The position numbers and the translations under genes were made by a program. DNA of 64,000 nt from Liolophura sinensis (lineage: Eukaryota > Mollusca > Polyplacophora > Chitonida > Chitonidae): assembly GCF_032854445.1 (NCBI RefSeq), contig NC_088304.1, positions 27,537,732-27,601,731 of the forward strand. The letters are read 5' to 3'. Position 1 is the first letter of the stretch. Every line of letters begins with the position of its first letter. The notes beneath the pieces are model-generated. The model worked only from the letters and a program-made list of their open reading frames with translations. It searched no databases and was not told where the DNA came from. Below, piece by piece: positions 16,901 to 61,267 of this stretch.

Positions 16901-17501
16901 GGAGAGGCAGTTATGTTGCAATGGTGTTGTGCAAAACAAACCGGCTGTACAACCGCATGAGGTATCCTGTTGCGGTACAGAGCTGTATAATACCAAAGTA
17001 GGCGTGTGCTGTGGGGACCGAGCGTACTTCAGGCCTAGCTGTTGGACAGGGTGCTGCGGTAGCAGACCGTTCAACCTGGACGCAAATTTTTGTTGCGATA
17101 ACAACCTCGTTCCCAAGCCGTTTTTCCACACGGATCAGTTCGCGTGTTGCGGGACGTCACGCTATGACAGGCGTGCAAGTCTTTGTTGCAAAGGACGCAT
17201 TGTTCCCAAGCCAACCGATACCTACGACTGCTGTGGAGCCGTCCGATATAACCGTCGTACGCAGATCTGTTGCGGAGGGCGCATCTACCCGTTAACGTAC
17301 CAGGACCGAACGCTGTGCTGTGGAGCGCAGGCTTACAACGTTTTGACGAACGTGTGTTGTAACGGTGTAGTCAGCCCTCGGAGGTTTGGCGCCACGACCG
17401 GCTGCTGTGGCCAGGCCACCTTTAACGTCGACACTAACGTATGCTGTAAGGATAACTCCATTTATCCGATCTCCTACTTCCGGGCAGGGTACAGCTGCTA
17501 A
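13907..17501 (+). CDS. galaxin-like secreted di-cysteine repeat protein (2 exons)
   Basis: Joining 13907-13973 to 16495-17501 gives an open frame of 357 residues. The N terminus (MASSTSLVQLLWIFGSLITAKA) is a typical signal peptide. The mature part has 21 Cys-Cys pairs alternating as xCCG and xCC about every 9-20 residues, with motifs such as CCGxxxYN and CCNGVV, and ends in YSC. This is the architecture of galaxin and galaxin-like proteins, first known from coral skeletal matrix and also found in molluscs and other invertebrates, where a role in extracellular matrix or biomineralization is proposed. Donor A/GTAAGT and acceptor TCCTCAG flank the 2.5-kb intron, and the split codon becomes Asn. 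An in-frame ATG at 13895 would add four residues; I chose 13907 because it gives the cleaner signal peptide. No transmembrane segment or other domain is visible. The family call is firm; the biological role is inferred. Confidence 0.88.
14928..15074 (-). mobile_element. SINE family A, in the galaxin-like intron
   Basis: TTTATTTGATTGGTGTTTTACGCC tail and a well-preserved central domain. Confidence 0.85.
15389..15535 (-). mobile_element. SINE family A, degenerate
   Basis: CGTCGTACTCAGGAACAG through TCCGCAGGTTGCTGGAAGAT, in the galaxin-like intron. Confidence 0.65.
16240..16320 (-). mobile_element. SINE family A, strongly decayed fragment
   Basis: Weak but ordered similarity: TTTAACGCTGTATTCAATAT, then TTTCACTTACAATATGGCGG. 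It is close to the galaxin-like exon 2 acceptor. Confidence 0.5.
16495..17501 (+). CDS. galaxin-like exon 2 (entire cysteine-rich region)
   Basis: The exon begins after the acceptor TTTGTCCTCAG and carries all ten or so di-cysteine repeats uninterrupted to TAA at 17499-17501. It is more GC-rich than its surroundings, as expected of real coding sequence. Overlapping open frames on both strands here are shadows of the cysteine repeats. Confidence 0.9.
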
Positions 17502-22258: not shown

Positions 22259-22441
22259 CTACCTGCCCTTCTTCCTTCCCCGTTTGCCCCTGGGGGAGGG
22301 GGACTCCTCTGCAGCTGCCCCGACAATGATCTGCCCCTCTTGGATCTCTGTCTGTGACACCTCTTTTGTTGAGGAAAGTTTTTGCTGAGCTTCCAGGTAA
22401 AACATTACATCCCGAAGCTGTTCTCTGAGCTCCTCAATTTC
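22259..22441 (-). CDS. BRAP: BRAP exon 15 (C terminus)
   Basis: Encodes [20 protein letters not shown] and ends in the basic tail [10 protein letters not shown] before TAG (22259-22261). Human BRAP ends similarly (SRKGRSKRGK). The acceptor is GTTTTACAG. A 3' UTR follows to lower coordinates; gene-sense ATTAAA at 21322-21327 is a weak candidate poly(A) signal. Confidence 0.94.
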   Translation of the reverse strand, partial: EIEELREQLRDVMFYLEAQQKLSSTKEVSQTEIQEGQIIVGAAAEESPSPRGKRGRKKGR

Positions 22442-25400
22442 CTGTAAAACAAAAACAAGTCACGTCGACTTTGTGTCGTAATTTACAAAGTTTGTACTCC
22501 AGTTTAAAGATTCTACTAACCCCTTCATTTCTTTATTTCAAATGCACAACACTCTTGAGGGAAACTGGACTACTGCGATGCCTGTTTAAACATACAGCCA
22601 GTTTTTAAAGTAATATAACTATGCTCCAATCTTTTGTATGGTGAAATGTTGTCCAGCTTGCACAAGTCCCAATAAATAATTTTAAACAGTCTCCTAGAAA
22701 GGAAAATCCAAATATGGAATTGGTTTTCATGAAACTGAACATTTCAGTTGTCGTTACATGCTTTCAAACAATTCAAGCTATAGAAAACTTTCAGAATTTG
22801 CCTCTTTCTTGCTCTAGGTATCTCGGTTATGTATTCAACCGTTATGTGTATACCTTTATTACATACGTCAGTTATCACAGATTTCTACACCACACATAGC
22901 TTTCAACAAGGTAGACAGATTTGTCTTTCAATCACAGTGTTGTATTTCAGGAGAGGTGACACTTTATCAAAACAACAATGTTGTATTTCAGGAGAGGTGA
23001 TGATCTATCAAAACAACAGTGTTGTAATTCAGGAGATGGGATGATTTATCAAAACAATAATGTTGTATTTCAGGGAAGGTAATGATTTATCAAAACAAGA
23101 CTGTTATATTTTAGGAGAAGTGATGATTTATCAGAGCAACAGTGTTGTATTTCAGGGGAGGTGATGATTGATCAAAACAACAACGTTGTACTTCAGGAGA
23201 AGTGATGAGTTATCAGAACAACAGTGCTGCATTTCAGGAGAAGTGATGATTTATCAGGACAACATTGCTGTATTTCAGGAGAAGTGATGATTTATCAGGA
23301 CAACAGTGCTGTATTTCAGGAGAAGTGATGATTTATCAAAACAACAGTGTTGTATTTCAGGAGAAGTGATGATTTATCAAAACAACAGTGTTGTATTTCA
23401 GGACAGGTGATGATTTATCAAAACAACAATGTTGTATTTCAGGAGAAGTGATGAGTTATTAGGACAACAGTGCTGTATTTCAGGAGAAGTGATGATTTAT
23501 CAAAACAACAGTGTTGTATTTCAGGAGAAGTGATGATTTATCAAAACAACAGTGTTGTATTTCAGGACAGGTGATGATTTATCAAAACAACAATGTTGTA
23601 TTTCAGGAGAAGTGATGAGTTATTAGGACAACAGTGCTGTATTTCAGGAGAAGTGATGATTTATCAAAACAACAGTTTTGTATTTCAGGGAAGGTAATGA
23701 CTTATCAGAATAACAGTGTTGTATTTCAGGAGAGGTGATGATTTATCAAAACAACAATTTTGTATTTCAGGGAAGGTAATGATTTATCAGAATACCAGAG
23801 TTGTCATTCAACAGTGTTGTATTTTAGGCAAGGTGATGATCTGTCAGAACACCATATAAGCTATACCTCTTCTTTTGAGGCTGTCAGCTCCTGCACTTTG
23901 GTCTCCAGACTGTTCACCCTCTTCTGCCAGGCCTGCTGGTTCTCCAATAACCCCTTGTTCATCTCCTTTTCATCACGAAGCTCTGTCAGCACGGACGTCA
24001 AGCGACTGTGCAGCTGTGCAGCACAGAGAAAACACAAAATAGCATTGAATTTCGAATGACTGATTCCGAATACATGTACATGAAATGCGATATATGTCAC
24101 ATCATATTTGCATCCACATGTATTTAAGACTATATCCAGAATTCTATATTTTTTTTATTTTATTTGTTTTTTTGTAAAAATATATTCATAGGATAATAGA
24201 GAAATGTAGATCTGGGATCAATCCTGGGTCGAGTCACACTTAAAACTTTAAAAGACGAAGTTGTAATTTCCTCGCTTGGCGTTCAGCATGAAGGGGATAG
24301 TGCAACGACTGGTTGACCCGTATCAGTATAATGGTTCAGGCGGGGCGGCTTACTTGCCTTTGCTAAGTCGTCTCAGTGAAGCAGCGCTAGATAACAGAGC
24401 GGTGGAAATCCCCCCTGCAACAAGGAGGCACAACACATACACGCTAAGGATTCCTTCGTCGTCACATGACTGAAAAATTGTTGAGCACGACGTTAAACCC
24501 CAAGCACTCACTCACTCACTAACAGAGAAATGCTGTCCAATGATTTCAAAGATGGACATAACTGGGTTGGTAAAGACCAAACCAATATCAGAAGGCAAAC
24601 CTTAATCAAAACTAAATGACACAGGCAGACTTTTGCATATGTATTCATCCAGGCGTTGATTTCAGCGCGGACTTGTAGACTCACCTGTGCCCCTTTCTTC
24701 TCTGCTATCTGTTTCTCCTTGGTCACTTGGTCGACTTTGTTCTCTAAAAACTCTGAGTGTTTCTTCGTCTCTTTATACCTAGCCTCAGTGTCAAGAACCT
24801 GTCAATGTATGATCATGTAGTTTTACTGGGATCTAGTTATAAATAGCCACGTGTATTTATAATGAATATAAATAATCTGTTTAAAATCACTTTGAGTATT
24901 ATTTCACTCATATTTGCGTTGATGTAGCAAGTCTGTCCATAACAAATGTATAAGCCTATCTCATTGGAATGTTGACCAATCCAGCTAGTTATCAGGAAAA
25001 ACAAAAAAACTTTATCCGTTTGCTTTATGCACAGAAAGATCAAAATCAAGGATCAGTTTTAAAGATGGAAATCAAACTTAAATCAGGTTTGAATCCCTGG
25101 TTAAAACAGTGCATGAAACTAAGCTACAGGCTAAGCCATAACAAATTCAGCATCAGTGTATCTTTGGTTTACAAGTACAATTTATTTATTCACTCCACTG
25201 ATTGGTGTTAAATATCATACGCAGTAATTTTTCATTTATTTAACAGTGGTCAAGTTAATATTTGATTTATTTGATTGGTAATTTACGCCATACTCAAGGA
25301 TACTTCACTTATATGACGGCGGCCAGCATTACCGTGGGAGGAAACCCACGTACTGCCGGAGAGGAAGCCAGCATGAGCTGGACTTGTCAAGTTATGAGTT

Positions 25401-28400
25401 TGAGTTAACTGGAGTTACATGTACGTGAGTAAATTTTGGTGAGAGCTGGATTTCAGCTTGTGACTTCCCTGGTCAGCACCAAAACCAGCACATTAGCTAG
25501 AGCCAGTAGGGCAGCTAGAGATAGTTCCCCTTGCAAGTAAAATTACATGTACACACCATAAAAAGATCAAAAAACCTCACAAGAATTTAGACATTTCAAA
25601 CAGTAATTCATGGAATTCAGAACACCTCAACTGAAGGAACTGTGATATAAGAAAAGCCTGTGGAAGTGTTGTTATAATCACCTGTTCCTGAGCCACCTGC
25701 TCTATGTTCTTCATCTTCTCCTCAAAATACAACCTCTGAGATTCCAGTTGATTGGTTAGCAGATATGTGTACTGAGAAATTAAAGGAAGGTAAAAATAAA
25801 AGTTAAAAATTATGTCACATAATAGTAACAACATCTTTCAAAACTCAAAATGTAGATGTATGATATACTAAACGAAGATTTTAACACGTTTTCAATCTTT
25901 CAATTTCAAACAATCTCCCCGATAAAGATAAATAAAAAATTATTTACATTTACACTACATGTACATGTAATTAAATGTGTGACAGCCAATGGCAGAAAAG
26001 AATGTGAAATTTGGTGATCAATTCAACACATGTTGACAAAGAATTGCCTGACAGTACGTTTACAAACTGGGAACAGAATACAAACCAAATACGAACCAAA
26101 TACCACCATGCAAATAAAACATTTTTTCATACAACTATTTTGTGGAGAGGATTAGTATAACAATATTTGAGAACATTTAATAACTGAAGTATTGGATGGG
26201 AAAGTACTTGACATCTTTATATATATCACACAGTTGTGGCTTAACTTTTGAAGAAATTTTGAACCAAAAGATGGCAATGACAAATCTTGGTATCGCTTTC
26301 ACTGTCTGAATCAAGTGGATAACATACATGTACGCCTTAATTTATTTACTCTATTGGTGTTTTATGCCGTACTCAAGAATATTTCACTTATACGACGGTG
26401 ACTAGCATGGTGAGAGGAAACCAGGCAGAGTCTGGTAGAAACCTACGACCATCCGCAGGTTCTTGGCAGATGATCCCACATACAGCCGGAGACGAAGCCA
26501 GCATGTACACCTTTAATGACCTCTTTGTACATTTCACAGGTGAATTACCTCTAGTGTGAGGGAGGTGAGTTTCTCTTCCTGTACAAAGTTGCCACCTTCG
26601 TCCACCTGGACTAGTTTACCGTCAGTCTTGTTCTGTACCAGTCTGTGCACATAATTATCCCCGGTGTAGTCCCACACGCGGTTACTACCTAGCTGCATGG
26701 CATACGTGTGCTGTGTCTCCTGGAAATGCCTGAAAGAAAAAAACAAAACAAAAAAAAAACAGTGCATGTGCACCGACTTCCTATAAGGGAGAAGAAAGCA
26801 TAAAAATCATGCCAAAATTTACAAATATCGTCTTCAATATTTTTTGTGACTTTCTCTTTCAGGAGATACTCAGCATTGGAAAATCGTTTTGTATGGTGGG
26901 TATTTGGGACCACATCTTGGTATGCATCGTGTTTGCATAATGTTGTTCCAAATAAGCATGTAAATGCATGTCTAATAAATTTATTTGAATGCAAATTTGT
27001 TGTTTATATCCAAACACATACCTTTAATCTGAATGATGATAATATTTATGAATATATTAAAAACATAAATATGGTCAAAATCAAGGATGAACACATTTGC
27101 TAGCTGGAAAGACCAAATTCTAGCGTAAACAACTTTAATAAACACATGTGTTACATCTTTATTTATAACATTATCACACAAAGACAATATATACCATGAC
27201 ATACAACCTATACATGCCAAAAGGTGGTCACAAATACCAACCATACAAAAATCATTTACAACATATTATTTTCCTTTAAAGAAAACTCGAAAAAATATTG
27301 AAGAACACACTTACAACTAACTTTTCGCACTTTGTCATCAGAAATTGTGACATGTATCAGCTGACCATAACATCATCGTTGTGTACACAATTTGGAACAT
27401 AATTTTCTTATGTCGGTGGTTAAATTGACCATGGAGCTCTTTCACTAGGCAGTAACTGTTCCAACAGTTACACCCATAGTCTTATGCCTATTACTGCCAG
27501 CAGAACTCATCTATGTGTACATTACCACCCTTGTCCCACGGCAGTAGCTATGACGTAATGCAAGATCACTTGTTTAGGCATAAACTACGAGAAGTGGGAC
27601 CTTGGCTTCTGAAGTGGGTGTAATGCAGTATGTACCATACAGTAGATTATCCAATGACACTAACAACTAGTTTCTAGTCAACAAAATTCAGAAAAAAACA
27701 TGACATCAGCCAAGCAGAGTTGCAGGTCTTAAATCCAGTCTGTGTTCTTCAGCTTAGCTAGGACATACATGTTTGACATTCATGTGCATGCAAGCTGTAT
27801 ATCTATTATACATGTACATGTATTTTCATTGTGAGATTTCTAAATTCCTTCAAACGGCTTAAAACTATATAACCTTTATCTTGGTTTTCAAATCCGTCCT
27901 GAAGTTAGGGTCTTCAACTGGCCAGTACTGGTGTAAGTTTTGAAACTCGCCATTCTTCTCTCATTTAACCACAGCTTACTCATTATTAAAAATGCACCAA
28001 TTAAACGGGAGAGTGACCTCAGTGGAGGTAATTCAGTGTAGCCCAATAGTCAGTGATACCACAACCCATTCTCTTAACCATGAATCAAACTAAGCCAAAC
28101 TGAATGAGTAAAGACTGACCTGAAAGCATGCCTGGCCACATATCTGCCACATCCTACATGACCACAGATCAGACAGATCCACAGGCTCTGCAACATCAAT
28201 GACACATCATCACATTACATCACAGGTACTACTCATAGGTGTCAAAAAAAAGATGTCATATGATGGAAAATACAGTTCAAAGAATCAACAGAAGCAACCA
28301 AGTCTAATGTGCTGGCAGGTAATAAGGTGATAAAATATTTGTAAATGTTAAATTATTTATTTATTTGATTGGTGTTTTACTCCCTACTCATGAATGTTTC

Positions 28401-31400
28401 ACTTATACAGCGGCGGCCAGCATTATGGTCGGAGGAAAGCAGGCAGAGCCCAGGGGGAAACTCATGACCATCCAGCAGGTTGCTGCCAGATCTTCACGTG
28501 TTCGGCCGGAGAGGAAGCCAGCATGTGCTGGGCTTGAACTCACAGCGACCTCATTGGTGAGAGGCTCCTGGGTCATTACGCTGCGCTAGCGTGCTAAGCA
28601 ACTGAGCCACGGAGGCCATAATGTTAAATATACAGTATATATGCATGTTACAAATGTGCGTGTAGCTACATGTACAATCAACTTAATTAGTAGACAGTTG
28701 CTTTGTGACAGAGGGACCCAAATTAAAAGGTCTTGTAATATGGATGGAAAACACTGGAGTGCATCTCGTCATGTATCTGACAAGCCTTTCACGTTAAAAC
28801 CTCAGTGGAAGCTGTATTAAAGTATACCTATCTCAGAGGTTAATAGCTGATTCAGACTGGATGCGCTGACAACAGCCTGAGCTTTACACGGAACTTAAAA
28901 ACACTGAAAATGGTGAATATTTGCAGAAATGCTTTTTACGTATCTGCCCTTAAACATTTGTTAGTACCTCTTGTGATCCACATTCTATGCACCTGTTGTC
29001 AGCCACTTCTTCTGGTGTCTGACAATAACGACACACAGGGCAACTGAAATGAACAAAGCCGTTACAAATACATGTTCTACTGGTCAGGCACATACATGTG
29101 CAGTACTGTCCAATCCAAATGAAATACCCTATGCAGATCATACGGCCATTATGGGCAGACAAGCACAGGTGTTGGAACCATCCCGGTCGCATCTTATGCA
29201 GATCTTGGTCAGCTCGTACATGTAGTCTCGCTTGGACCATTTTACGGCACTTTGTCTAGACGCTAGCTATAAACATGACACGATCTATCTTCTGTCTGCT
29301 TACCTGGTAAAGCAGGTGTGGTGACAAAAAAGAATTAGTGAATGGTTTATCATTAGCCTAATTCTTACTCATTCAAACAAGTGAAAAGGTGATTCATCCC
29401 AATCCGTGACATTTTGCCTTCCAGTTTCTCGACGAAGTTTATTAGCGTCAGTGAAAATGTAAAATCGTAACTGGATAACCGGAGATAATGTAAGTTCACG
29501 CCAAAAATGTGTGCTAATAATATAAATTAACCGTTCATGGGATGTATATTATCAAGTGTAAGTTCTGCTATAAATAAACACAAAATTTAGCACTTAAATT
29601 GACTTCCTTAAAAAATTTTGCATACAAGAAAAGTGTATATGAAGGTTATGGTTTTTCCATAATGGCTTCACACAGACACCACGATTTTAACACCTGTTCT
29701 TACCTGGTGTCTCCTCATTGTGACAGACAGGTTATGTGGAAGGAGTGGTTACAAAGGATTGTCACCATGCCATCAATAGCTTCACACAGACACCACGATT
29801 TTAACACCTGTGCTTACCTGGTGTCTCCCCACTGTGACAGACAGGCCATGTGGAAGGAGTGGTTACACAGGATTGTCAGGATGCCATCAATGCCTTCACA
29901 CAGACACCACGATTTTAACACCTGTGCTTACCTGGTGTCTCCCCATTGTGACAGACAGGCTATGTGGAAGGAGTGGTTACAAAGGATTGTCACCATGCCA
30001 TCAATAGCTTCACACAGACACCACGATTTTAACACCTGTGCTTACCTGGTGTCTCCCCACTGTGACAGACAGGCTATGTGGAAGGAGTGGTTACAAAGGA
30101 TTGTCAGGATGCCATCAATGCCTTCACACAGACACCACGATTTTAACAGCTGTGCTTACCTGGTGTCTCCCCATTGTGACAGACAAGCTATGTGGAAGTA
30201 GTGGTTACAAAGGATTGTCAGGATGCCATCAATAGCTTCACACAGACACCACGATTTTAACACCTGTTCTTACCTGGTGTCTCCTCATTGTGACAGACAG
30301 GCTATGTGGAAGGAGTGGTTACAAAGGATTGTCACCATGCCATCAATAGCTTCACACAGACACCACGATTTTAACACCTGTGCTTACCTGGTGTCTCCCC
30401 ACTGTGACAGACAGGCCATGTGGAAGGAGTGGTTACACAGGATTGTCAGGATGCCATCAATGCCTTCACACAGACACCACGATTTTAACACCTGTGCTTA
30501 CCTGGTGTCTCCCCATTGTGACAGACAGGCTATGTGGAAGGAGTGGTTACAAAGGATTGTCACCATGCCATCAATAGCTTCACACAGACACCACGATTTT
30601 AACACCTGTGCTTACCTGGTGTCTCCCCACTGTGACAGACAGGCTATGTGGAAGGAGTGGTTACAAAGGACTGTCAGGATGCCATCAATGCCTTCACACA
30701 GACACCACGATTTTAACAGCTGTGCTTACCTGGTGTCTCCCCATTGTGACAGACAAGCTATGTGGAAGTAGTGGTTACAAAGGATTGTCAGGATGCCATC
30801 AATGGCTTCACACAGACACCACGATTTTAACACCTGTGCTTACCTGGTGTCTCCCCACTGTGACAGACAGGCTATGTGGAAGGAGTGGTTACACAGGATT
30901 GTCAGGATGCCATCAATAGCTTCACACAGACACCACGATTTTAACACCTGTGCTTACCTGGTGTCTCCCCACTGTGACAGACAGGATATGTGGAAGGAGT
31001 GGTTACACACGATTGTCAAGATGCCATCAATGGCTTCACACAGACACCACGATTTTGACACCTGTGCTTAACTGGTGTCTCCCCATTGTGACAGACAAGC
31101 TATGTGGAAGGAGTGGTTACAAAGGATTATCAGGATGCCATCAATGCCTTCACACAGACACCACAATTTTAACACCTGTGCTTACCTGGTGTCTCCCCAC
31201 TGTGACAGACAGGATATGTGGAAGGAGTGGTTACACAGGATGGTCACGATGCCATCAATAGCTTCACACAGACACCACGATTTTAACACCTGTGCTTACC
31301 TGGTGTCTCCCCATTGTGACAGACAGGCTATGTGGAAGGAGTGGTTACAAAGGATTGTCAGGATGCCATCAATGGCTTCACACAGACACCACGAATTTTA

Positions 31401-34400
31401 AACACCTGTGCTTACCTGTGTCTCCCCACTGTGACAGACAGGCTATGTGGAAGGAGTGGTTACAAAGGATTGTCAGGATGCCATCAAGCCTTCACACAGA
31501 CACCACGATTTTAACAGCTGTGCTTACCTGGTGTCTCCCCATTGTGACAGACAAGCTATGTGGAAGTAGTGGTTACAAAGGATTGTCAGGATGCCATCAA
31601 TGGCTTCACACAGACACCACGATTTTAACACCTGTGCTTACCTGGTGTCTCCCCACTGTGACAGACAGGCTATGTGGAAGGAGTGGTTACACAGGATTGT
31701 CAGGATGCCATCAATAGCTTCACACAGACACCACGATTTTAACACCTGTGCTTACCTGGTGTCTCCCATTGTGACAGACAGGATATGTGGAAGGAGTGGT
31801 TACACAAGATTGTCAGGATGCCATCAATAGCTTCATCCTGAAATGAAACCACAGGAGTACTTGTATGAAATAGTGGACACTTACATCATTTGTTACAAAT
31901 TTGCAACAAGAATAAATGTATGTACTATACATGTGCAGACATTTGATGTGTCATAAACCTTGTAACAAATAACTAGAATAACTAAAGAAAGTGCTGAAAC
32001 TTCATTATAACAACAGAAAATCAATGTTGTATATTATTCTTAGTACAAGCTAAGTACCTCACTCGATCAACTGTTTACTTATCCATATATGGAATAACAG
32101 TAAACAACATTAACTGAATGAAAGCATCCAGGGAAATATTCTTAAACTCTTCTGGTTTCTCACTGAGAGTGTGAGTGTCAAGTTCAAGTTTCTCCTGTCA
32201 AACTATCAAAAAACTTTTACAATTTGATAAAATACTTTTTCATATCACTGTAATGTATAGTTTGATCAGGGGAGATAACTACCACAAAAGGGAGATAATC
32301 ACACTTACCATCCTTTCCAGGCATACTGGACAGTTAGGCAGCTCAGTAAGCCCTGGTACTGGTAGACAAGCTCCCTGTGAAACAAAAAACAGTCAAACAA
32401 TTCAGGCTGTACTCTTTTACTATTGAACACATCTAACCACAAACAACTGTTTTATCCCCAGGTTTTGTGTATCAGAAACAATAAATTCTAAACATAAAAC
32501 AGTTGACCACAAAATGTAATATTATTATCATTGGTGTGTAATATTTTATTACTGTGTGTATGTATATATAATGTTAACATTTACCTCCCCTGCTTTGACT
32601 GACTCGACTTTGGCCACATAGACTAGATGACACACATAGTCCCTCTATTGAGTTGAAGGGAATGCCATTGTAGTTACTGTAAAACTCATCTGCAAGTGTC
32701 TGCCAAAACAGAAGAAAACCCTCACTTTATTAAATCATGGGTACATACTGAAAATCCTCAACTGATTCGACCAACATTATCCACAGAACACTTTTACCTA
32801 CCAAATATTGTCAATATGAATGACATTTAATGATGTTCTCAAGGATCAGATTTCATTTCTGTGATATCGGTCAAGTCAATGAGTGGAAGAAACTGGAGTG
32901 CCTGGAGTACAGCACATCCCTTTTGCCAGATACCCAGCAAATCTTCTGGCTTGTTTATTTATTTGACTGATTAGTGTTTTACACCGTACTCAAGAATACG
33001 ATCAGTGAGGAAGCCAGCATGGACTGGGCTTAAGCTCACAGGAACTGCACTGGTGGGAGAATTCTGTGCCATTGTGCTGCACTAGCACTGTGGACCACTT
33101 GGCCACAGAGACCTTTCTTATCACTTAAAGCCATAGCCAAATCATGTATGGTTTACGGATACATTATACAACACATTACTGTACAGCACATACATTTTCA
33201 TCTTTTTCCGTCACTTAGACCAAATGTTTGTCAAAGAACATGAGGGGAAGTTTGTCAGAAACTTTCCAAAGGTCACTCATATACATCCACACATACATGT
33301 ACAACTAACCATACATCATACAAACAAACAATTCCCGGCTGTGGAGTTAACCAACATCACACAAATAAAAGAAAATGCCAACGAAAGCCATAGCAATGGA
33401 TGTATAATCTATCAGTCTTGATGTCCTACCTGATTTCTAAATTTGATGAGGAGCATGTACTGGTTGGGACTGGAGTCTCGGATGATCCGCATGAACTCCA
33501 CACCAGAGCTAAAAGCACAAAACTTCAGTCAGTGTATACAATGAAAGTATGTAACAATTGCACAGTGACAACAATTTTTTCAGGCACGTTGTATTCTCAT
33601 CGTTCATGATTATCATCCCTTGACAGGGTAAATAAGTTTGAAAAGTCACAGCTAAGATTACTAAAAGTAGCAGTAGAGAATGGTATAATATATTTACTTA
33701 TTTGACTGATGTTGTTTATGCCTTACTCAAGAATACTCAAGAACTTGAGGGATAGTTGTGGGTTTCTCCTGGGCTCTTTCCTGTTTCCTCCTACCATAAT
33801 GCTGGAGTTGGAAAATATTTTTTAGTATGGCCTAAAATTCCTATCAAATAAAAAAAATGAATACACCAAACAAAATGAGCAATAGTGTACTCACTGTACA
33901 GCAGCTGTGAACTGCAGGACATCATGGATAGTGAAAGCTGCAGGGACTGTCAGGATGCACACCATCTCACTACGCGGGATGTCCTCGTTCAGCGGAGTCA
34001 GTTGACTGAGAAACAGACAAACATGCTTCATCACACTTTTAGAAGGACAGATTTTTTTATTTTCACAAAGCCAGAACGTTTAAAAGTGTTGTTTTTCCAG
34101 CGGATTAAATATTTTTGTAATGTCGAAGGAGCGTATAAAAATTACAAAAGCAAAATTGAAAATCATCTGGTTTCTCAGAAAGGTGGACAATTCCAGCAAT
34201 TTTCCCTGTTAAAGACTGATTTACATGATCAGAACGCCTTGAAAACTAGAAATTTTAAAAACATCAAAATCAGACAAAGCTGGATTTTCAGTTTTAATTC
34301 TCTTCCATTTTTAAAGTTATTCAGAGTCAGCTAACCATAAAACACAGAATAAAGTTACTGTCACATTGTATACAAAATCCCAGAACACAGAGCACCATTG

Positions 34401-37400
34401 GTTATCAGAGTCGTGATCAAATGCCATTAATGTTTTAAGCTCATAAGGAATTGTTAATCCATTATCCTAAGGCTTCATTAACATAGAGTCACAGGCTCAC
34501 TACAGCCAAATCACTGGCAGGTAACAGGCTTGACACAGGCAGACCACAGACAGGCTGCAGACCCATTAAAGCCAAACCACTGGCAGGTTACAGGCTTGAC
34601 ACAGGCAGATCATTGGCAGGCTACAGGCTCACTACAGGCAGACAACAGACAAGCTACAGGCTTGACACAGGCAGACCACTGACAGGCTACAGGCTCACTA
34701 CAGCCAAATCACTGGCAGGTTACAGGCTTGACATAGGCAGACCACTGACAGGCTACAGACTCATTACAGTCAAACCACTGGCAGGTTACAGGCTTGACAC
34801 AGGCAGATCATTGGCAGGCTACAGGCTCACTACAGGCAGACAACTGACAAGCTACAGGCCTGCCACAGGCAGACCACTGACAGACTACAGTCTCACTACA
34901 GGCACTGGTAGACTATTGAGTCATGACAGCCAAATCACTGGCAGGTTACAGGCTAGACACAGGCAGACCACTGACAGGCTACAGGCTCACTACAGGCACA
35001 CAACTGACAAGCTACAGGCTAACTACAGGCAAATCACTGGCACACTATTGAGTCATGACAGCAGGCAGGTCACAGGCTTGATACAGGCAGACAACTGACA
35101 GGCTACAGACTCACTACAGCCAAACCACTGGCAGGTTACAGGCTTGACACAGGCAGACAACTGATAGGCCACAGACTCACTACAGCCAAACCACTGGAAG
35201 GTTAGATGCTTCACACATGCAGATCACTGACAGGCTACAGGCTCACTACAGGCAAATCACTGGCAGACTATTGAGTCATGGCAGCCAAACCACTTGCAGG
35301 TTTAAGGTTCACTACAGGCAAATCACGGACAGGCTACAGACTAACTACAGCCAAACCACTGGCAGGTTACAGGCTCACTACAGGCAAATCACTGGCAGAC
35401 TTATGACTCACTACAGCCAACCACTGGCAGGTCAGAGGCTTGATACAGGTAGACCACTGACAGGCTATACACTGACTACAGCCAACCACTGGCAGTTCAC
35501 AGGCTTGATACAGGCACACCACTGACAGGCTATACACTGACTACAGCCAACCACTGGCAGGTTAGCTTGAAACAGGTAAACCACTGACAGGCCATACACT
35601 GACTACTGCCAACCACTTGCAGGTCACAGGCTTGGTACAGGCAAACCACTGACAGGCTGTACACTGACTACAGTCAACCACTGGCAGGTCACAGGTTTGA
35701 TACGGGTAGACCACTGACAGGCTATACACTGACTAGAGCCAACCGCTGGCAGGTCACAGGCTTGGCACAGGCAGACCACTGACAGGCTATACACTGACTA
35801 CAGCCACACCACTGGCAGGTCACAGGTTTGATAAGGACAGACCACTGACAGGCTATACAATGACTACAGCCAACCACTGGCAGGTCACAGGCTTGGTACA
35901 GGCAGACCACTGACAGGCTATACACTTACTACAGCCAACCGCTGGCAGGTCACATGTTTGATACAGGCAAACCACTGACAGCTTACTGCAACCAAACCAG
36001 TTGCATGCCTCATGCATGCGGTTGAGATACGTGTACATGTATGAAATGACAGTTCACTGACTAGGTTGCACTGTAAGTAAACAGCTTACTTGTCCTTGTA
36101 GATATGAAGCAGACCTTTGGTGACCTCAACCATGGGATTGCCGGAAAAGAAGTATATTGTGCCCGGGCCTTTTGGCAAAGGGCTGTGACTCTGGGGACGT
36201 TTAATCCCCGAACCAGGGTGCATAGATGCATGGGAATCATCAGGAAACATGGGAGAGTAGCCAACTTCCACGGAACCACCCCTTGTCTGTGACTGAGACT
36301 TCCTGGCTGTGACACGATCAGCAGACCTCGAGCGCTTGGGTCTTGTGAAAGTTGATTGTGGCCTTGTAGAAACTTCTTCTGCAGTGTTAGAAGCTGCACT
36401 GTTGGTGTTGAAGTCTCGAACCTGTTGACTGTCCTCAGTAGATATGCTGGACACAACAGATGCGTAGGATGAGTCAGATTTCCCACCTGTCCCACATTTG
36501 ACAAGCTGAACAGTTTTTTCATCTGTGTCTGGCCCTTAAAATAGTCAAACAGAAAAGATATATTACTGTTTAGTATCAACTCCTACAAAAGGAGAAGATA
36601 TATTCAGAGAAAAATTAAAATGCATTAGCCATTGTTCTCATAGGCTAATTAACCGGATTCAAAAAAGCATGTAGTTATAATCTATAAGAAAATGTTACGA
36701 GAGGTTTCACTGTTGTTTAGCTTTAAAACCTTTATCATAGAGAGTGTAGAAAGGTCTATAACAGGTGGAAGGATCCCTTATACTACCAGATACTAGGTAA
36801 ATGTAACAACTGTATATAATCTGGAACTTGAGCATCTTTGCTGAACCAGGCTTAAGTATTCTTAATGTACTAATGATTTTGCCTTCATCACAGCACAACC
36901 TTTTCTCGAACACTTACATGCTTTACTATATGCCTGCCACCCATCCCACTACCCCTTCTCCATACACAATGTCTATGAGCTATCCATATAAGTACCTTCA
37001 TTGACTATTGTCTCAATTGTGACATCTTGCATCTTCCTTTGTCCTATGTACTTGTCCAGGTTTTGTGTTTCTGAGGGAACATCGTCTGGTCCAAATCTTT
37101 GATTACGGGAGCCTGCTTCATGCTTCTTCTCTGATGTCATGATGAATTTTGGTGCTGGGAAAAAATACACATAAAATAATGGTATATCGGTATTGTGACC
37201 ACCTATCACACTGTAATGTTTCTAAAGATGAATGTGCATAAACTAATGATACAATAAATTTCGGGTTTTTTTAAGAATATGTACAGAGGGATTTGTTAAA
37301 ATGAGATTGCTGTCACGTAGTAGAATGACGTCAATTTATTCCAGAATTCTCCTTAGTGACAAATAATAGAACATAGACCAACAGCGGCAACACATGTAAA

Positions 37401-37740
37401 AAAGAAAACTCATCTGGCCCACCATTTCTTGAATTATGCATACATTTATTCCTTCAACCTGCTATATATGCGTAAGGCATATATAATTCCACATTTTTTC
37501 CGTAGAATATGACATGTCAAAGACTGAAATACTGTCGCACTATTTCAGGGCTCTGAGATGAATGACATTGACAAATTTTTAACTTGACATTACAACATAG
37601 ATGAGCCTGGAGTCCAGTTTTCGAGTGCAGCTGAACATTGTGTGAAAGCAGACCTCTTACATACCTTGATAAGCAAATGATTTGGGAGTTATACTGTCGT
37701 CGGCCACTTCAAGACGTAGAACAAGAAGAGACACCGACAT
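22259..37740 (-). CDS. BRAP: BRCA1-associated protein (BRAP/IMP), RING E3 ubiquitin ligase, 15 coding exons
   Basis: Gene-sense exons run from 37740 down to 22259 and give about 663 residues once two single-base indels are allowed for; human BRAP has 592. The start [16 protein letters not shown] matches the conserved BRAP N terminus. Domains in order: BRAP2/RRM-like region at about 205-320 (starting [12 protein letters not shown]); RING-H2 at about 343-382 with ligands C343, C346, C362, H364, H367, C370, C379, C382; UBP-type zinc finger at about 396-433 with C396, C399, C408, C411, C416, H423, H427, H433; coiled coil at about 480-600; basic tail [10 protein letters not shown]. The known family is cytoplasmic, restrains Ras-MAPK signalling through KSR, retains NLS cargo and binds ubiquitin. 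All introns are GT..AG. Oddities: exon 6 has one extra base, exon 8 lacks one, and exon 8 heads a 19-copy array. It is divergent from QPRT. Confidence 0.95.
22935..23850. repeat. 41-bp minisatellite in the last BRAP intron
   Basis: About 22 units of TGTATTTCAGGAGAAGTGAT followed by GATTTATCAAAACAACAGTG, spaced 41 bp apart (for example 23281, 23322, 23363). A block of four units (164 bp) is itself duplicated: GGACAGGTGATG occurs at 23401 and 23565. The array ends within about 20 bp of the exon 14 donor. I found no similarity to any BRAP exon. Confidence 0.93.
23867..24013 (-). CDS. BRAP: BRAP exon 14 (coiled coil)
   Basis: Forty-nine codons including [18 protein letters not shown], which aligns with LTNELKEEQEMNKCLRANQ. 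The acceptor is CTGTGCTGCACAG and the donor GTATAG. A 41-bp minisatellite begins almost immediately inside the following intron. Confidence 0.92.
24205..24522 (+). mobile_element. SINE family B (tRNA-like head, CACTCA tail)
   Basis: Box-B-like GGATCAATCCTGGGTCGAGT, body with CCTCGCTTGGCGTTCAGCA and ACTTGCCTTTGCTAAGTCGT, and tail ACGACGTTAAACCCCAAGCA then CTCACTCACTC. It shares the body with the copy at 61268-61472. It lies in a BRAP intron, antisense to the gene. Confidence 0.85.
24685..24798 (-). CDS. BRAP: BRAP exon 13 (coiled coil)
   Basis: Thirty-eight codons of heptad-like, Lys/Glu-rich sequence ([20 protein letters not shown] and onward). It is less conserved than its neighbours but in phase 0 at both ends. 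The acceptor is ATTGACAG and the donor GTGAGT. Confidence 0.88.
25262..25400 (-). mobile_element. SINE family A with internal deletion
   Basis: Tail TTTATTTGATTGGTAATTTA and central domain GGCGGCCAGCATTACCGTGG join directly to ACTGCCGGAGAGGAAGCCAG, skipping the CATCCGCAGG segment. Confidence 0.82.
25682..25771 (-). CDS. BRAP: BRAP exon 12 (coiled coil)
   Basis: Thirty codons, [20 protein letters not shown] and so on, the start of the coiled coil (human YSYLLTSQLESQRIYWENK). The acceptor is AATTTCTCAG and the donor GTGATT. Confidence 0.94.
26339..26505 (-). mobile_element. SINE family A in a BRAP intron
   Basis: TTGGTGTTTTATGCCGTACTC through ACGACCATCCGCAGGTTC to GACGAAGCCAGCATG. It lies 45 bp from the exon 11 donor region. 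Confidence 0.85.
26549..26729 (-). CDS. BRAP: BRAP exon 11 (UBP zinc finger, C-terminal part)
   Basis: Sixty codons beginning [13 protein letters not shown] and including [14 protein letters not shown], the conserved end of the ubiquitin-binding finger. The acceptor is TTTCTTTCAG and the donor GTAATT. Confidence 0.95.
28120..28187 (-). CDS. BRAP: BRAP exon 10 (UBP zinc finger)
   Basis: Encodes [20 protein letters not shown] plus AF, almost identical to the human finger. The acceptor is ATGTTGCAG and the donor GTCAGT. It ends two bases into the Arg codon. Confidence 0.94.
28352..28620 (-). mobile_element. full-length tRNA-derived SINE (family A)
   Basis: On the minus strand the head resembles a tRNA: GGCTCAGTTGCTTAGCACG near 28600 as box A and GTGAGTTCAAGCC near 28535 as box B. 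It is followed by the conserved central domain (CATAATGCTGGCCGCCG) and the tail ACACCAATCAAATAAATAAAT near 28352. This is the best complete copy in the window and defines family A. It lies in the BRAP intron between exons 9 and 10. Confidence 0.88.
28968..29043 (-). CDS. BRAP: BRAP exon 9 (last RING ligands, start of UBP finger)
   Basis: Encodes [18 protein letters not shown] followed by IECGSQE, containing RING ligands C379 and C382 and the first UBP-finger cysteines. It starts with the third base of a codon, so it needs an exon 8 ending two bases into a codon. The acceptor is TTTCAG and the donor GTACTA. Confidence 0.94.
29659..31837 (-). repeat. 19-copy 114-bp tandem array derived from BRAP exon 8 plus its 5' splice site
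   Basis: The donor motif (plus strand CTTACCTGG) recurs at about 29698, 29812, 29926 and so on to 31750, exactly 114 bp apart on average. In gene sense each unit is exon 8 minus its first three bases, donor GTAAGC, and about 33 bp of downstream intron. Only the copy at 31756-31837 is preceded by the real acceptor. The units' own preceding sequence (GGTGTCTGTGTGAAG) is a poor acceptor, and the inter-copy gap of about 37 nt is very short for an intron. Lesions: TGG to TGA in the copies near 29710 and 30280; a destroyed donor (CTTAACTGG) near 31066; indels near 31410 and 31770. Five units form a 570-bp higher-order repeat, with 29660-30229 nearly identical to 30230-30799. Confidence 0.95.
31756..31837 (-). 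CDS. BRAP: BRAP exon 8: RING core, only copy with a 3' splice site, one base short
   Basis: Starts after acceptor TTTCATTTCAG and encodes [20 protein letters not shown], which supplies zinc ligands C362, H364, H367 and C370. It ends at donor GTAAGC. The length is 82 nt, whereas the junction phases require 83. Most downstream copies read CAATGGGGAGAC, but this one reads CAATGGGAGAC, so splicing to exon 9 would shift the frame just before the last two RING cysteines and hit a stop. It is the first transcribed member of a 19-copy, 114-bp array. Loss of one G in a homopolymer may be an assembly error. Confidence 0.88.
32309..32374 (-). CDS. BRAP: BRAP exon 7 (first RING ligands)
   Basis: Twenty-two codons, [19 protein letters not shown], carrying RING ligands C343 and C346. 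The acceptor is TTGTTTCACAG and the donor GTAAGT. The next coding base must be in phase 0, which exon 8 satisfies. Confidence 0.94.
32585..32699 (-). CDS. BRAP: BRAP exon 6, with a one-base insertion
   Basis: The exon is 115 nt, but both flanking junctions are phase 0, so 114 is expected. Reading begins [19 protein letters not shown] and then leaves frame. Dropping one G from the GGG run at about 32640-32643 (CCC on the plus strand) gives [21 protein letters not shown], which aligns with the family's IEDDVCQLVYVERAEV. This is either a homopolymer assembly error or a real frameshift. Splice sites are intact (acceptor TTTTGGCAG, donor GTAAAT). Confidence 0.88.
32951..33114 (-). mobile_element. 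SINE family A with internal deletion, head retained
   Basis: Tail TTTATTTATTTGACTGATTAG and AGTGTTTTACACCGTACTCA, then a jump to GAGGAAGCCAGCATGGACTG and the tRNA-like head ending GGCCACAGAGACC. Confidence 0.8.
33430..33508 (-). CDS. BRAP: BRAP exon 5 (BRAP2/RRM-like domain)
   Basis: Encodes [19 protein letters not shown], the most conserved block of the BRAP2 domain. The acceptor is GTGCTTTTAG and the donor GTAGGA. The exon ends in phase 0. Confidence 0.93.
33690..33858. mobile_element. fold-back pair of SINE family A tails
   Basis: 33690-33740 reads as a minus-oriented tail (TTATTTGACTGATGTTGTTT, TACTCAAGAAT). 33745-33858 reads as a plus-oriented 3' part (GTGGGTTTCTCCTGGGCTCT, CATAATGCTGG, TATCAAATAAA). 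The two are joined head to head with no spacer. Confidence 0.7.
33895..34005 (-). CDS. BRAP: BRAP exon 4 (BRAP2/RRM-like domain)
   Basis: Encodes about residues 227-263, including [20 protein letters not shown], which aligns with [20 protein letters not shown] of the human protein. The acceptor is GTTTCTCAG and the donor GTGAGT. Confidence 0.93.
34490..35995. repeat. 65-bp minisatellite in BRAP intron 3
   Basis: More than 20 degenerate units built from CCACTGACAGGCTA, AACCACTGGCAGGT and CACAGGCTTG. In the right half the spacing is 65-66 bp (starts at 35711, 35776, 35842, 35907 and 35972). The left half is more diverged and irregular. It ends about 95 bp from exon 3. Open frames across it on both strands are by-products of the repeat. 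Confidence 0.9.
36090..36534 (-). CDS. BRAP: BRAP exon 3 (Ser-rich linker and start of BRAP2 domain)
   Basis: At 445 nt this is the largest BRAP exon. A low-complexity Ser/Thr/Arg-rich linker accounts for most of the extra length over human BRAP. It is followed by the conserved [20 protein letters not shown] that opens the BRAP2 domain. The acceptor is TATTTTAAG and the donor GTAAGC. Confidence 0.93.
36996..37154 (-). CDS. BRAP: BRAP exon 2
   Basis: Encodes residues 26-78, including [16 protein letters not shown], which aligns with the family segment GRREMTDVIIET. The acceptor is TTTTTTCCCAG and the donor GTACTT. Confidence 0.9.
37665..37740 (-). CDS. BRAP: BRAP exon 1
   Basis: Encodes residues 1-25. 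The ATG at 37738-37740 matches the family start (MSVSL). The donor is GTATGT and the exon ends one base into a codon. Confidence 0.92.
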
Positions 37741-38534: not shown

Positions 38535-39165
38535 ATGAATGAGAACAACATATCTGGCTTTCCCGAGGTTAGTGCAGATATCATAATGAGTTCAGAGGAG
38601 GAAAAGACCTCCGACAGCCCTCGATTTCCAAATTTCTCGACTCTTTTAAACCCGGTGACTGTTCGCCACATGGTGCGTGAGTGGTTGAAGGAAGATTCCC
38701 CAAGTTTTGACTACGGCGGGTTTGTTGTCGGGGAGAAAGAGGAAGAGGCCGTCCTTCTTTTAAAAAGCCCCGGCGTCTTAGCAGGCGCACCATTCGTGGA
38801 AGCTGTGTTCAAAGAGTTAAACTGTGAAGTAGAGTGGTTGGTCACGGAAGGGACGTTTTTGGAATCGGTGAGGACTGTAGCGAAAATCACAGGAAAGTCC
38901 GGCGGTTGTTGTTGGTGAGCGAGTAGCTCTAAACTGCATTATGAGATGTAGTGGTGTAGCGACGGTGGCCAGGCGCCTATGCCAGGCGGCTAAAAAGGCC
39001 GGTTGGGGCGGGGAGGTCGCCGGAACCCGCAAAACCACCCCCGGATTCAGACTTGTGGAGAAGTACGCCCTGTTAGTTGGCGGCATTTCCACCCACCGCT
39101 TCGATCTGTCATCCATGATCATGTTAAAAGATAATCATATATGGGTGGCAGGTAATATTGAACAG
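38535..39165 (+). CDS. QPRT: QPRT exon 1, with a one-base frameshift
   Basis: The frame starting at 38535 encodes the N-terminal domain as far as [10 protein letters not shown] and then runs into a stop near 38916. The +1 frame continues with [20 protein letters not shown], exactly as in the family (human CLLLGERVALNTLARCSG). The extra base lies in GGAAAGTCCGG at about 38892-38899. The exon is 631 nt where a multiple of three is expected. The donor is CAG/GTGAGG. Confidence 0.92.
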
Positions 39166-41835
39166 GTGAGGGAAAACAACACGCCATATTTGTTACACAT
39201 ATTATATATCTCTGGTACATACAAAGTCTTTTATTCTTTTGAATGATTATCAAACCTTCATTTTTTATCTCTACCTCTTTTACCAGTGCTTCTATAGAAT
39301 TATAGAAAATTATGGAGAAGTACTAAAAATAATATGCATGTTATGAAGGAATTAGTGTTGTAAGTGGGTGAGGGTGCGTTGGTGTAATCTTACATGAAGT
39401 TAACTGGAGACCACATACCTTTTGCCGGCCAATAAATTTGTGACTGAGATTTTATACGGCAATCACAAAGAAATCATGTAAGTGAAATATTCATACATAA
39501 GGCATAACATACCAATCAAAAATAAAATCAAAATTTGAAAATTTGATCAAAATACTAGATATTGTTGTATAAAATTAAAAGTAATGTCATTACCTTAGCA
39601 GAAAGGAAACGTATTACACGCATATATAAACACTGTAGTACGACAACAGAACTCCAGACTGGATTTTAAATTAACATGAGAACAACTTACAAGGACCTGT
39701 GGAGTGAAGGACTATGCTAGGGAGGAAGTGGACAGTCCTGATTTTAATGCCTCTGATGGGTGGCTTTGCCATTTCTTAGCACGCCACATTCTGTTTGTTC
39801 GGAAACGAACAACTGTGACCCAGTAGTTATTCAAGGATTTTGACAGTAAGACTGAAATCTTCCAGAACTATAGGGGGAATTGTTTTCAATTGTTTCAATG
39901 GTTTTCAGTATGGGGGAATCTCTGGTAGTAGTAACCAAGAATACCATTTCCAGCAACGGAAAACTGTCCTGAAAAACATCACACTCATGGAGATTTACTT
40001 TTACCCCTTTTGATAGGGGTAAAAGTAATTAAAGTAAAGTTATGTATTTGTGATGGATGCCCAGGTTGTGGGAGGATACTCCACAAAGATTGAGGTGGAG
40101 TGTAGACCTGCATGTACATGTACTCTGTTACAGGCTGTAAGGATGCCCGGGTTGTGGGAGGGTTCTCCACAAAGTGTAGGTGGAGGTGGAGTGTAGACGT
40201 ACATGTACATGTACTCTGTTACAGGCTGTGAAAGATGCCCAGTCTGTGGAAGGGTTCTCCACAAAGATTGAGGTGGAGTGTAGGCCTATGTGTACATGTA
40301 CTCTGTTACAGGCTATGAAGGATGCTATTAAAGATTGAGATGGAGTGTAGGCCTACGTGTACATGTACTCTGTTACACGGTGTGAAGGATGCCCAGGTGG
40401 TGGGAGGACTCTCTACAGAGATTGAGGTGGAGTTTAGACCTATGTGTACATGGACTCTGTTACAGGCTGTAAAGGATGCCCAGGTTGTGGGAGGGTTCTC
40501 CACAAAGATTGAGGTGGAGTGTAGACCTATGTGTAATTGCTACTCTGTTACAGGCTGTGAAGGATGCCCGGGTTGTGGGAGGGTTCTCCACAAAGATTGA
40601 GGTGGAATGTAGGAGTGTGGAGGAGGCCCAGGAAGCAGCACAGGCTGGAGCTGAAGTCGTCATGCTGGACAACTTTGAACCTGCTGTAAGATTACATGCA
40701 TGTACTGCTAGTCTATATACTAAAGCTTGGGGAATTTATTGCTGCCGCCTGGTGTTATGGCTGTTAGGGTAAGGCTGTAAGAGTAAGGCCAGTATTTTAT
40801 CCAGACTTTGGTCGTGCTACAGACTTTAAAAATGAGAATCATGGATTTAGACAACATTAAGGTATATTTTCTGTTTTATGGGCATTTTATTTTTGTTCTG
40901 ATCTTGTATGTTTTAGATGATTTTCCCATTTTTTCAAAGGCTTTCCAATCACTTTAATACAAGAAGGTGTATGTCTTCAACAGGAACAATTTGCTGGAAC
41001 AGTCCACATTTTCCTCAAATCAGATTATTTTTCACTTTTATTTTTGTAACCTCTTCCTGCTTTGATAACGAATGCTTTCTTCCTGTAAAACAAAAATTGG
41101 AATTAGTGTGGCCTTAGTGAGAAATATAAAATAGAATGATGAGACAACATTTTTTGAAGCCATTTTGTTTAAGAAGGTTTTAATAATCTTGAAATAGGGT
41201 GTCCAAAGGTCACTAATTTTTTTAACAAAAACTAACTAACTGACAAAACTGTAACTGAGGTAGAATGAAAAGAGGCCGTATTTCACCGGTTACATGTGAC
41301 CAGTTGCCACCTATTACTTTGTCACTGCTCTGGTTTTGCTACCTGTGTTGTAAGTCTTATATTGTATTGGCCCACCTTGATTAAAGATGCCAAAATAGGG
41401 CTGTTCTCAGTTGTGCTTTTGGCATGACACAAAAATATAAATATCTGTCAAACATTGAGACTGGTTGCAAGGAGACATGATTTCAGTTATGACTGAAATA
41501 AATGATTGTTGACAGTAACATTAAACCATGACCAAACGAATGAATTGTCAGTCAGCACATTTGTTTTAATTTGCGTTCTTCTTCAGGCGGCGAAGTCTGC
41601 ATCCAGCATTCTGAAGGAGAAATTCCCCAGCTTGACCATAGAGGCCAGTGGAGGGATCACAGAGGACAATATCCTTCAGTATTTTGACCAAAACATTGAT
41701 GTGGTGTCACTGAGCAAGCTTACCCAGGGTTATGAGGCTCTGGACTTCTCCATGAAAATCCTCAAAGACGGCCGTGATCCCAGAAACTTACCTGTAAAAT
41801 CAGAAGATGTTTCCAAGAAACAAAATTCTGTTTGA
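38535..41835 (+). CDS. QPRT: quinolinate phosphoribosyltransferase (nicotinate-nucleotide pyrophosphorylase), 3 exons
   Basis: Exons 38535-39165, 40554-40685 and 41587-41835 give about 336 residues once one extra base in exon 1 is ignored; human QPRT has 297. The enzyme converts quinolinate and PRPP to nicotinate mononucleotide, CO2 and pyrophosphate in de novo NAD synthesis from tryptophan. Visible motifs: KSPGVLAG near the N terminus; [15 protein letters not shown] (RKTTPG near residue 165); MLKDNH (K near 198); KIEVEC (EVE at about 226-228); MLDNF (248-251); EASGGI (273-278); and [13 protein letters not shown] near the C terminus. Exon junctions are all phase 0 with GT..AG introns. The first ATG gives an N-terminal extension over human; ATG at 38586 (MSSEEEK) is an alternative start. 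A frameshift at about 38892-38899 splits the frame in exon 1. Intron 1 contains several partial copies of exon 2. Confidence 0.94.
39166..40045 (+). other. QPRT intron 1, proximal part
   Basis: AT-rich intronic sequence between the exon 1 donor and the exon 2 fragment array. I recognise no repeat or gene in it. Confidence 0.6.
40046..40610 (+). repeat. ~88-bp tandem array of QPRT exon 2 fragments with their 3' splice site
   Basis: Units consist of ACATGTACTCTGTTACAG, then GCTGTGAAGGATGCCC and the next ~40 bp of exon 2, breaking off at GAGTGTAG. Exon-like starts fall at about 40134, 40225, 40312, 40380, 40466 and 40554 (the real exon); a further partial unit near 40050 lacks the acceptor. Spacing is 86-91 bp, except one unit with a ~22-bp deletion. 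Acceptors at 40134, 40225, 40312 and 40466 keep TTACAG; the one near 40380 is mutated to TTACAC. No upstream copy has a donor, and reading through reaches stops. Confidence 0.93.
40554..40685 (+). CDS. QPRT: QPRT exon 2
   Basis: Forty-four codons, [20 protein letters not shown] through [10 protein letters not shown], flanked by acceptor TACTCTGTTACAG and donor GTAAGA. It is the last and only complete member of a tandem series of exon 2 fragments. Its donor is unique in the series. Confidence 0.93.
40686..41586 (+). other. QPRT intron 2
   Basis: A 901-bp AT-rich intron with a GTAAGA donor and a TTCTTCAG acceptor. I see no SINE or tandem repeat. Confidence 0.7.
41587..41835 (+). CDS. QPRT: QPRT exon 3 (C terminus)
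   Basis: Acceptor TTCTTCAG, then 82 codons including [18 protein letters not shown] and [12 protein letters not shown], ending TGA at 41833-41835. The C-terminal ~20 residues (Lys/Ser-rich) extend beyond the human end. Confidence 0.94.
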   Translation, partial: AAKSASSILKEKFPSLTIEASGGITEDNILQYFDQNIDVVSLSKLTQGYEALDFSMKILKDGRDPRNLPVKSEDVSKKQNSV

Positions 41836-50400: not shown

Positions 50401-51215
50401 AGGGTTATGTATATATTTACCACCAGAACATGGGTTATGTATTCATGACCCACCAGAACAGGGTTATGTACACATGAACCACCAGAACAGGGTTATGTAT
50501 ACATGAACCACCAGAACATGGTTATGTATACATGAACCACCAGAACAGGGTTATGTATACATGTACCGCCAGAAAAGGGTTATGTATACATGAACCACCA
50601 AAACACGGGTTATGTATACATGTACCACCAGAACATGGGTTATGTATACATGAACCACCAGAACAGGGTTATGTATACATGAACCACCAGAACAGGGTTA
50701 TGTATACATGTACCACCAGAACATGGGTTCTGTATACATGAACCACCAGAACATGGGTTATGTATACATGTACCACCAGAACATGGGTTATGTATACATG
50801 AACCACTAGAACAGGGTTATGTATACATGTACCACCAGGACACGGTTATGTATACATGTACCGCCAAAACAGGGTTATGTATATATTTACCACCAGAACA
50901 TGGGTTATGTATACATGACCCACCAGAACAGGGTTATGTACACATGAACCACCAGAACAGGATTATGTACACATGAACCACCAGAACATGGTTATGTATA
51001 CATGAACCACCAGAACAGGGTTATGTATACATGTACCGCCAGAAAAGGGTTATGTATACATGAACCACCAAAACACGGGTTATGTATACATGTACCACCA
51101 GAACATTGGTTATGTATAAATGTACCACCAGAACAGGGTTATGTATACATGAACCACCAGAACAGGATTATGTATAATTTTTACAAACATAGAGCCGGGC
51201 TATATGCACGTGTAA
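47460..51215. repeat. 29-bp minisatellite with 704-bp higher-order repeat
   Basis: More than 120 units of ACCACCAGAACAGGGTTATG followed by TATACATGA. The period is 29 bp, or 30 in variants reading CATGGG. Between about 48440 and 50550 a block of 704 bp is present three times almost without change: the same open frame recurs at 48471, 49175 and 49879. Most units contain the palindrome CATGTATACATG or one of its near variants. Left and right edges are more diverged. The short open frames, full of Tyr, Met, His and Cys, are by-products. Confidence 0.95.
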
Positions 51216-59487: not shown

Positions 59488-59735
59488 GTTTTTATTAATT
59501 GGTGTCCTAAGCCGTAATCAGGAATATTTCACTTATACGACGAAGGCCAGCATTACGGTGGAAAGAAATCTGGCAAAGCACGGGGGAAACCCACAACCAT
59601 GCGCAGGTTGCTTCCCACGTACATTTCAGGAAGTCAGCATGATCTGGACTTGAACTCACATCGACCGCATTGGTGAAAGTCTCCAGGATCAGTAGGCTGA
59701 GCTAGCGCGCGAACCAACTGATCCACGGAAGCCCC
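59488..59735 (-). mobile_element. SINE family A, near complete with tRNA head
   Basis: Tail region TTAATTGGTGTCCTAAGCCG through the central domain to the head (TTGAACTCACATCGACCGCA, AACCAACTGATCCACGGAAG). A second tRNA-like segment (GTGGGTTCAATACCGG) follows at about 59745-59850. Confidence 0.84.
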
Positions 59736-61229: not shown

Positions 61230-61267
61230 TACAAAACTATAAAAAATAGTTACAAAAATTGTAGGAC

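Follow-up and report, generated by a model that had tools for sequence, protein, structure and literature searches.

Which copies still serve a gene when the edge of one of its coding exons has been multiplied many times over in place? The question is raised by a stretch of 64,000 nucleotides (nt) from the chiton Liolophura sinensis (contig NC_088304.1, positions 27,537,732 to 27,601,731; below, the window). In it, a unit of 114 base pairs (bp) that straddles the boundary between exon 8 and intron 8 of BRAP is repeated in tandem 19 times. BRAP is a regulator of the Ras/MAPK pathway, and exon 8 encodes part of its RING. Are the additional copies coding exons, regulators of splicing, errors of assembly, signs of a decaying gene, or simply passengers in an intron that has grown? 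We favour the last of these, with a probability of roughly 0.7. The array would be a neutral exon-edge minisatellite, in which the copy that lies beside the unduplicated signal of the exon works and the others are intronic decoys.

The array at the edge of BRAP exon 8

The exons of BRAP were located by a tblastn search with human BRAP and then by reading from junction to junction, and the count of 15 reached in this way is a minimum. When the exon pieces were joined, with an X at each of two frame breaks, three Pfam families matched above their cut-offs: BRAP2 (PF07576, 109.6 bits), zf-RING_2 (PF13639, 30.0 bits) and zf-UBP (PF02148, 84.7 bits). It is the presence of a BRAP2 domain, a RING and a zf-UBP within one protein that identifies the gene. 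The ligands of the RING are spread over three exons, with the first in exon 7, the third to sixth in exon 8 (copy 1 of the array) and the last, CPVC, in exon 9. Apart from the two one-base breaks, every one of the 15 exons reads open and the phases agree, the frames having been read by eye. The features concerned are as follows.

22262..37740, minus strand: BRAP gene, 15 exons and 14 introns, all GT-AG (tblastn with junction reading, Pfam)
32641..32643, minus strand: GGG run in BRAP exon 6 with a one-base frame break (FNSIE / DYVCHLVYV)
32309..32374, minus strand: BRAP exon 7, first RING ligands, donor ATG/GTAAGT, phase 0
31756..31837, minus strand: BRAP exon 8, which is copy 1 of the array, 82 nt as assembled, acceptor TTTCATTTCAG, donor CAG/GTAAGC
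31746..31755, minus strand: start of intron 8 (10 nt, GTAAGCACAG), with the weaker donor-like GTGTTA next to it (splice-path enumeration)
29657..31835, minus strand: 114-bp tandem array, 19 copies (Tandem Repeats Finder, TRF, and alignment of all 19 units)
29663..31713 (as cut in the unit alignment), minus strand: decoy copies 2-19, with 17 intact donors among 18 and the authentic acceptor absent
31066..31074, minus strand: destroyed donor of copy 7, CAG/TTAAGC, exon end 31072 (donor check of all copies)
28968..29043, minus strand: BRAP exon 9, entry phase 2, with the last two RING ligands

The array is far beyond chance. In the 64-kb window TRF gives it a period of 114, 19.1 copies, 93% matches and a score of 3829. 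On the minus strand the consensus unit takes in the last 80 nt of exon 8 and continues for 34 nt into intron 8, with GTAAGC directly after the exon text. The units are arranged head to tail, are tens of bp long and are highly similar to each other, as in a minisatellite, with a unit slightly above the usual range of 10-100 bp. An initial annotation of this DNA had recognized the 19-copy, 114-bp array, its gene, its exon, its unit and its strand. It had also numbered the zinc ligands of the exon C362, H364, H367 and C370. The exon reading, TRF and the unit alignment bear this out, and the ligand numbers are identical in the joined protein.

An intact donor is present in 18 of the 19 copies, as had been annotated, copy 7 being the exception. 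By contrast with this wealth of donors, the authentic acceptor TTTCATTTCAG precedes copy 1 alone. The donor of copy 1 scores 11.3, equal to the 17 intact decoy donors; here and below, splice scores are rough values from a crude matrix of consensus frequencies. The phrase "ladder of donors", used in the initial annotation, is apt for the anatomy only.

Each copy departs from the consensus at 1-7 positions of the alignment, and variants are shared among the copies in an ordered way. Mean distances between copies have their minima at lags 5 and 7 (4.64 and 4.67); the remaining lags up to 9 give 5.76-7.28. Growth by block duplication would be expected to leave such a pattern. Indels are found in copies 1, 3 and 4, and there are none in copies 5-18.

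Could the unit be a dispersed repeat with no more than a likeness to the exon? Within the window this candidate was rejected, as nothing outside the array matches the unit better than an exact stretch of 13 nt or one of 14 in 15 nt (E 0.49 and 1.7). A single exact-pattern scan of viral contigs for the array unit gave no matches, a scan of little power from which records near the window's own genome were possibly omitted. On the plus strand, open frames run across the array (207 amino acids at 29578-30201 and 189 amino acids at 30202-30771), which is put down to a unit length of exactly 38 codons.

Decoy copies, frame breaks and the mirror array in QPRT

Do copies 2-19 still behave as coding sequence? 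Their exon parts hold 17 distinct changes, many of them common to several copies: 6 are synonymous, 10 are non-synonymous and 1 creates a stop. Without constraint a synonymous share of 25% would be expected, and the observed split, 6 to 11 when the stop is counted with the non-synonymous changes, gives p = 0.40. The exon part varies at 18 of its 80 alignment columns. In the intron part the figure is similar, 8 of 36, and two of these columns are insertions that only copy 4 carries. An in-frame TGA is present in copies 14 and 19. With no detectable coding constraint, at the little power that 17 changes afford, copies 2-19 look like non-coding DNA. As they also have no authentic acceptor, they lack the make-up of a tandemly duplicated coding exon. 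The initial annotation spoke of coding sequence amplified in place; for copies 2-19 this is too strong.

The same annotation allowed a 3' splice site to the first copy only. This is correct for the authentic acceptor, but the decoys contain acceptor-like AGs after pyrimidine-rich exon text, as ATAG in 13 of 19 copies and as CACAG in 9 of 19, with copy 1 having neither. An alternative acceptor that would preserve the frame, GCACAG/GTG, was considered and discarded: it occurs at 17 sites in the units, and the best of these scores -2.8, which is lower than every real BRAP acceptor.

Splice paths through the array were enumerated on the assembled sequence. Single exons that start at the copy-1 acceptor have 38 candidate donors, of which 19 lead to a stop, 18 to the wrong frame and one to an open reading into exon 9. 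This sole open donor is a weak site 10 nt past the normal one. When all acceptor-like sites are allowed, 11 of 174 single exons of 20-500 nt are open, and 10 of these begin within decoys and drop most of the exon. Paths of two exons, the copy-1 exon and a second exon from the array, are open in 17 of 1,050 cases, seven of which use a 28-nt piece that reaches from ATAG to the next donor. Such paths would be possibilities only.

Copy 1, the presumed working exon, carries a frame break as assembled. In the 19-unit alignment its GGG run at 31765-31767 is one base shorter than in 18 of 18 other copies; the text is TGGGAG in copy 1, TGGGGAG in 16 copies and TGAGGAG in copies 14 and 19. Because copy 1 is one base short, its donor as assembled meets exon 9 out of frame. 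Exon 9 is entered in phase 2, so that the longer (GGGG) form reads W-G-D-T-S-C-P-V-C, which we take to resemble human BRAP, and copy 1 as assembled is frameshifted. A TAA right after the first donor, as initially annotated, is in frame for the GGGG form, but read-through past the donor of copy 1 as assembled gives ETPGKHRC and then a stop. The candidate donor GTGTTA, 10 nt beyond the normal donor, would let the assembled copy 1 join exon 9 in frame. Both BRAP breaks, in exons 6 and 8, lie within short G runs. Mutual compensation of the two was ruled out, since the shifted frame hits a TGA in exon 7 (frames again by eye). The break in copy 1 is most likely an error of the assembly consensus.

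The plus-strand neighbour of BRAP is QPRT (Pfam QRPTase_N and QRPTase_C), and it contains an array of the opposite kind.

38586..39165, plus strand: QPRT exon 1, start codon chosen by us, frame broken near 38898-38904
40049..40612, plus strand: QPRT mirror array, main unit 87 bp, comprising the last 28 nt of the intron and the first 59 nt of exon 2 (TRF and alignment)
40554..40691, plus strand: QPRT exon 2, comprising the last array copy, the unduplicated remainder of the exon and its donor

Here, about 8 kb from the BRAP array, acceptors rather than donors have been multiplied. There are six copies of the acceptor region, of lengths 91, 87, 67, 87 and 88 followed by the last copy, and a partial copy without an acceptor stands ahead of them. 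The acceptor CTGTTACAG is intact in five of the six. In both genes the presumed working copy adjoins the unduplicated side of the exon.

QPRT exon 1 is also broken. Its pieces match chain A of 4kwv, a solved nicotinate-nucleotide pyrophosphorylase, up to residue 97 and again from residue 101, and 7 bases lie between them where 9 are needed. There are thus three frame breaks (BRAP exons 6 and 8, QPRT exon 1) in about 2,950 coding bases, and the remaining exons of both genes are open. Three breaks in such well preserved neighbours suggest consensus indel errors rather than biology. The initial annotation had missed all three breaks, along with the acceptor-like sites of the decoys and the mirror array.

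Origin of the array and competing explanations

The array may have begun with the duplication of a segment that starts shortly after the beginning of BRAP exon 8 and ends 34 nt into intron 8. This segment would then have expanded to 19 copies, presumably by the ordinary processes of minisatellites, unequal exchange or replication slippage. Because it begins downstream of the sole authentic acceptor, copy 1 would stay the working exon and the extra copies would land in the intron. Decoys 2-19 would then be pieces of exon inside an enlarged intron 8, with donors of good quality but lacking a proper acceptor. Exon definition should favour the copy-1 donor, which is the only one at a normal exon distance from the acceptor (82-83 nt). 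Since this donor is expected to win, the array would be largely neutral, with nothing to hold back its growth and drift. The acceptor-side version of the same accident would have taken place in QPRT exon 2, with the last copy working there.

Several points weigh against this explanation. The constraint test on 17 changes and a placement test on four arrays, described below, are both of low power. As assembled, use of the copy-1 donor leads to the frameshift with exon 9, and if the missing base is real then BRAP must splice otherwise or be broken. In addition, the score of the weakest real BRAP acceptor (0.3 on the crude matrix) is equalled or exceeded by 19 decoy AGs, or by 20 AGs when the real one of copy 1 is included. 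The CACAG of copies 6 and 8 scores 3.6, compared with 3.4 for the real acceptor of copy 1.

These acceptor-like sites, and the fact that 17 of the 18 decoy donors are intact and strong, would suit an array that regulates splicing. In such a case decoy donors and acceptor-like sites would give rise to poison or extended exons and to decay of BRAP mRNA, and copy number would tune the output. Links between intronic minisatellites and splicing are described for other animals. PMC4039745 reports one such link in another animal, and PMC3948165 indicates that the copy number of the 38-bp repeats of TERT intron 6 can steer splicing. The TERT repeat, however, is not an exon edge, whereas the BRAP array is. 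A regulatory array nevertheless seems unlikely to us: constraint on the copies is undetectable, and copies that are so alike could well retain 18 of 19 donors with no need of selection.

Could BRAP and QPRT instead be decaying pseudogene copies in which arrays grow unchecked? Such a reading could draw on the broken frames of exons 6 and 8 in BRAP and of exon 1 in QPRT. But all 14 BRAP introns are GT-AG, the exons are otherwise open with fitting phases, the BRAP2, zf-RING_2 and zf-UBP matches exceed the Pfam cut-offs, and both BRAP breaks fall in short G runs. Taken together, this makes decay very unlikely.

We regard as highly improbable that the copy number is wrong or that the array is in part an artefact of assembly. 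The consensus is possibly imperfect, to judge from the indels that break the frame in three exons of the two genes, and the presence of array indels in copies 1, 3 and 4, with none in copies 5-18, points the same way. Against this, the copies differ from the consensus at 1-7 positions and share ordered variants, and therefore they are not one unit stacked; several further arrays are also present in the window.

Equally hard to credit is a length-tunable switch of unproductive splicing, in which functional BRAP would be made through a rare junction (the GTGTTA donor or a 28-nt decoy microexon) and the decoys would yield decay-bound mRNA according to copy number. Were it true, a minisatellite would set the dose of a Ras/MAPK-pathway regulator, and exon-edge minisatellites such as that of QPRT would be a recurrent class in this genome.

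The BRAP array offers a clean natural experiment on splice-site choice, with one acceptor set against 18 near-identical donors at steps of about 114 nt in a conserved gene. The QPRT counterpart sets five near-identical acceptors against one donor. Junction counts would gauge the weight of distance and of exon definition among equal sites. Exon-edge arrays of this kind may also mislead gene predictors into calling repeated exons or antisense open frames.

Comparable systems and the rest of the window

A minisatellite that supplies multiple splice donors in a human gene (6-16/IFI6) was reportedly described by Turri, Cuin and Porter in 1995, with a 12-bp unit and several of the donors in use. The likeness to BRAP is close, since in both a tandem repeat at the end of an exon places many donors behind one acceptor, in BRAP a consensus donor in 18 of 19 units behind a single authentic one. 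The difference is that the BRAP unit is 114 bp long and includes most of the RING exon, and that its donors are known from sequence alone. The title of the 1995 report appears in the reference lists of PMC2915984 and PMC2572611.

Internal tandem repeats at exon-intron boundaries have been described in human duplicated genes, where novel introns may result (PMC2812944). There, as in BRAP, expansion of a minisatellite at an exon edge alters gene structure. However, those units average 30 bp in four copies and belong to primate segmental duplications, compared with 114 bp in 19 copies within a conserved gene. The Rogers model of intron gain by tandem exon segments containing AGGT, and the 24-bp arrays of fission yeast, are cited in PMC4974935. 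The BRAP array has AG/GT in 18 of its 19 copies and an intron that extends across several of them, which resembles that model as it is given there. The difference is that exon 9 of BRAP is preceded by an acceptor belonging to intron 8 itself, and an existing intron has been enlarged with no new one needed. The BRAP array is a large further case of a known kind, and the adjacent mirror in QPRT adds to its usefulness. One literature search combining BRAP and minisatellite agreed with the initial annotation that no case had been described in this gene; its single hit is a review of human genetic variation in which BRAP is mentioned once.

The region is simply rich in minisatellites, because nine arrays fill 16% of the window (TRF entries picked by hand, with units of at least 20 bp and at least 3 copies). 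Further arrays of the window are listed here.

22934-23804: minisatellite of 41 bp in 21 copies in BRAP intron 14, starting about 60 nt past the donor of exon 14 (TRF)
34491-35981: minisatellite of 66 bp in 23 copies in BRAP intron 3 (TRF)
47584-51176: minisatellite of 29 bp in about 123 copies, also found with a period of 352 bp in 10.2 copies (TRF)

Two of the four arrays within BRAP and QPRT straddle a splice site. The probability of this under random placement is 0.14, so that no special targeting of exon edges is needed, and such targeting is unsupported.

The window gave no Rfam match to non-coding RNA at the gathering score and no tRNA with ARAGORN (bacterial code). Short open frames with common text recur at 2947-3162, 28326-28586 and 59375-59650 on the plus strand and at 60999-61367 on the minus strand, and are apparently copies of a dispersed repeat element found on both strands. 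An open frame of 344 amino acids at 16467-17498, on the plus strand, has galaxin-like repeats (PF24748, 179.2 bits).

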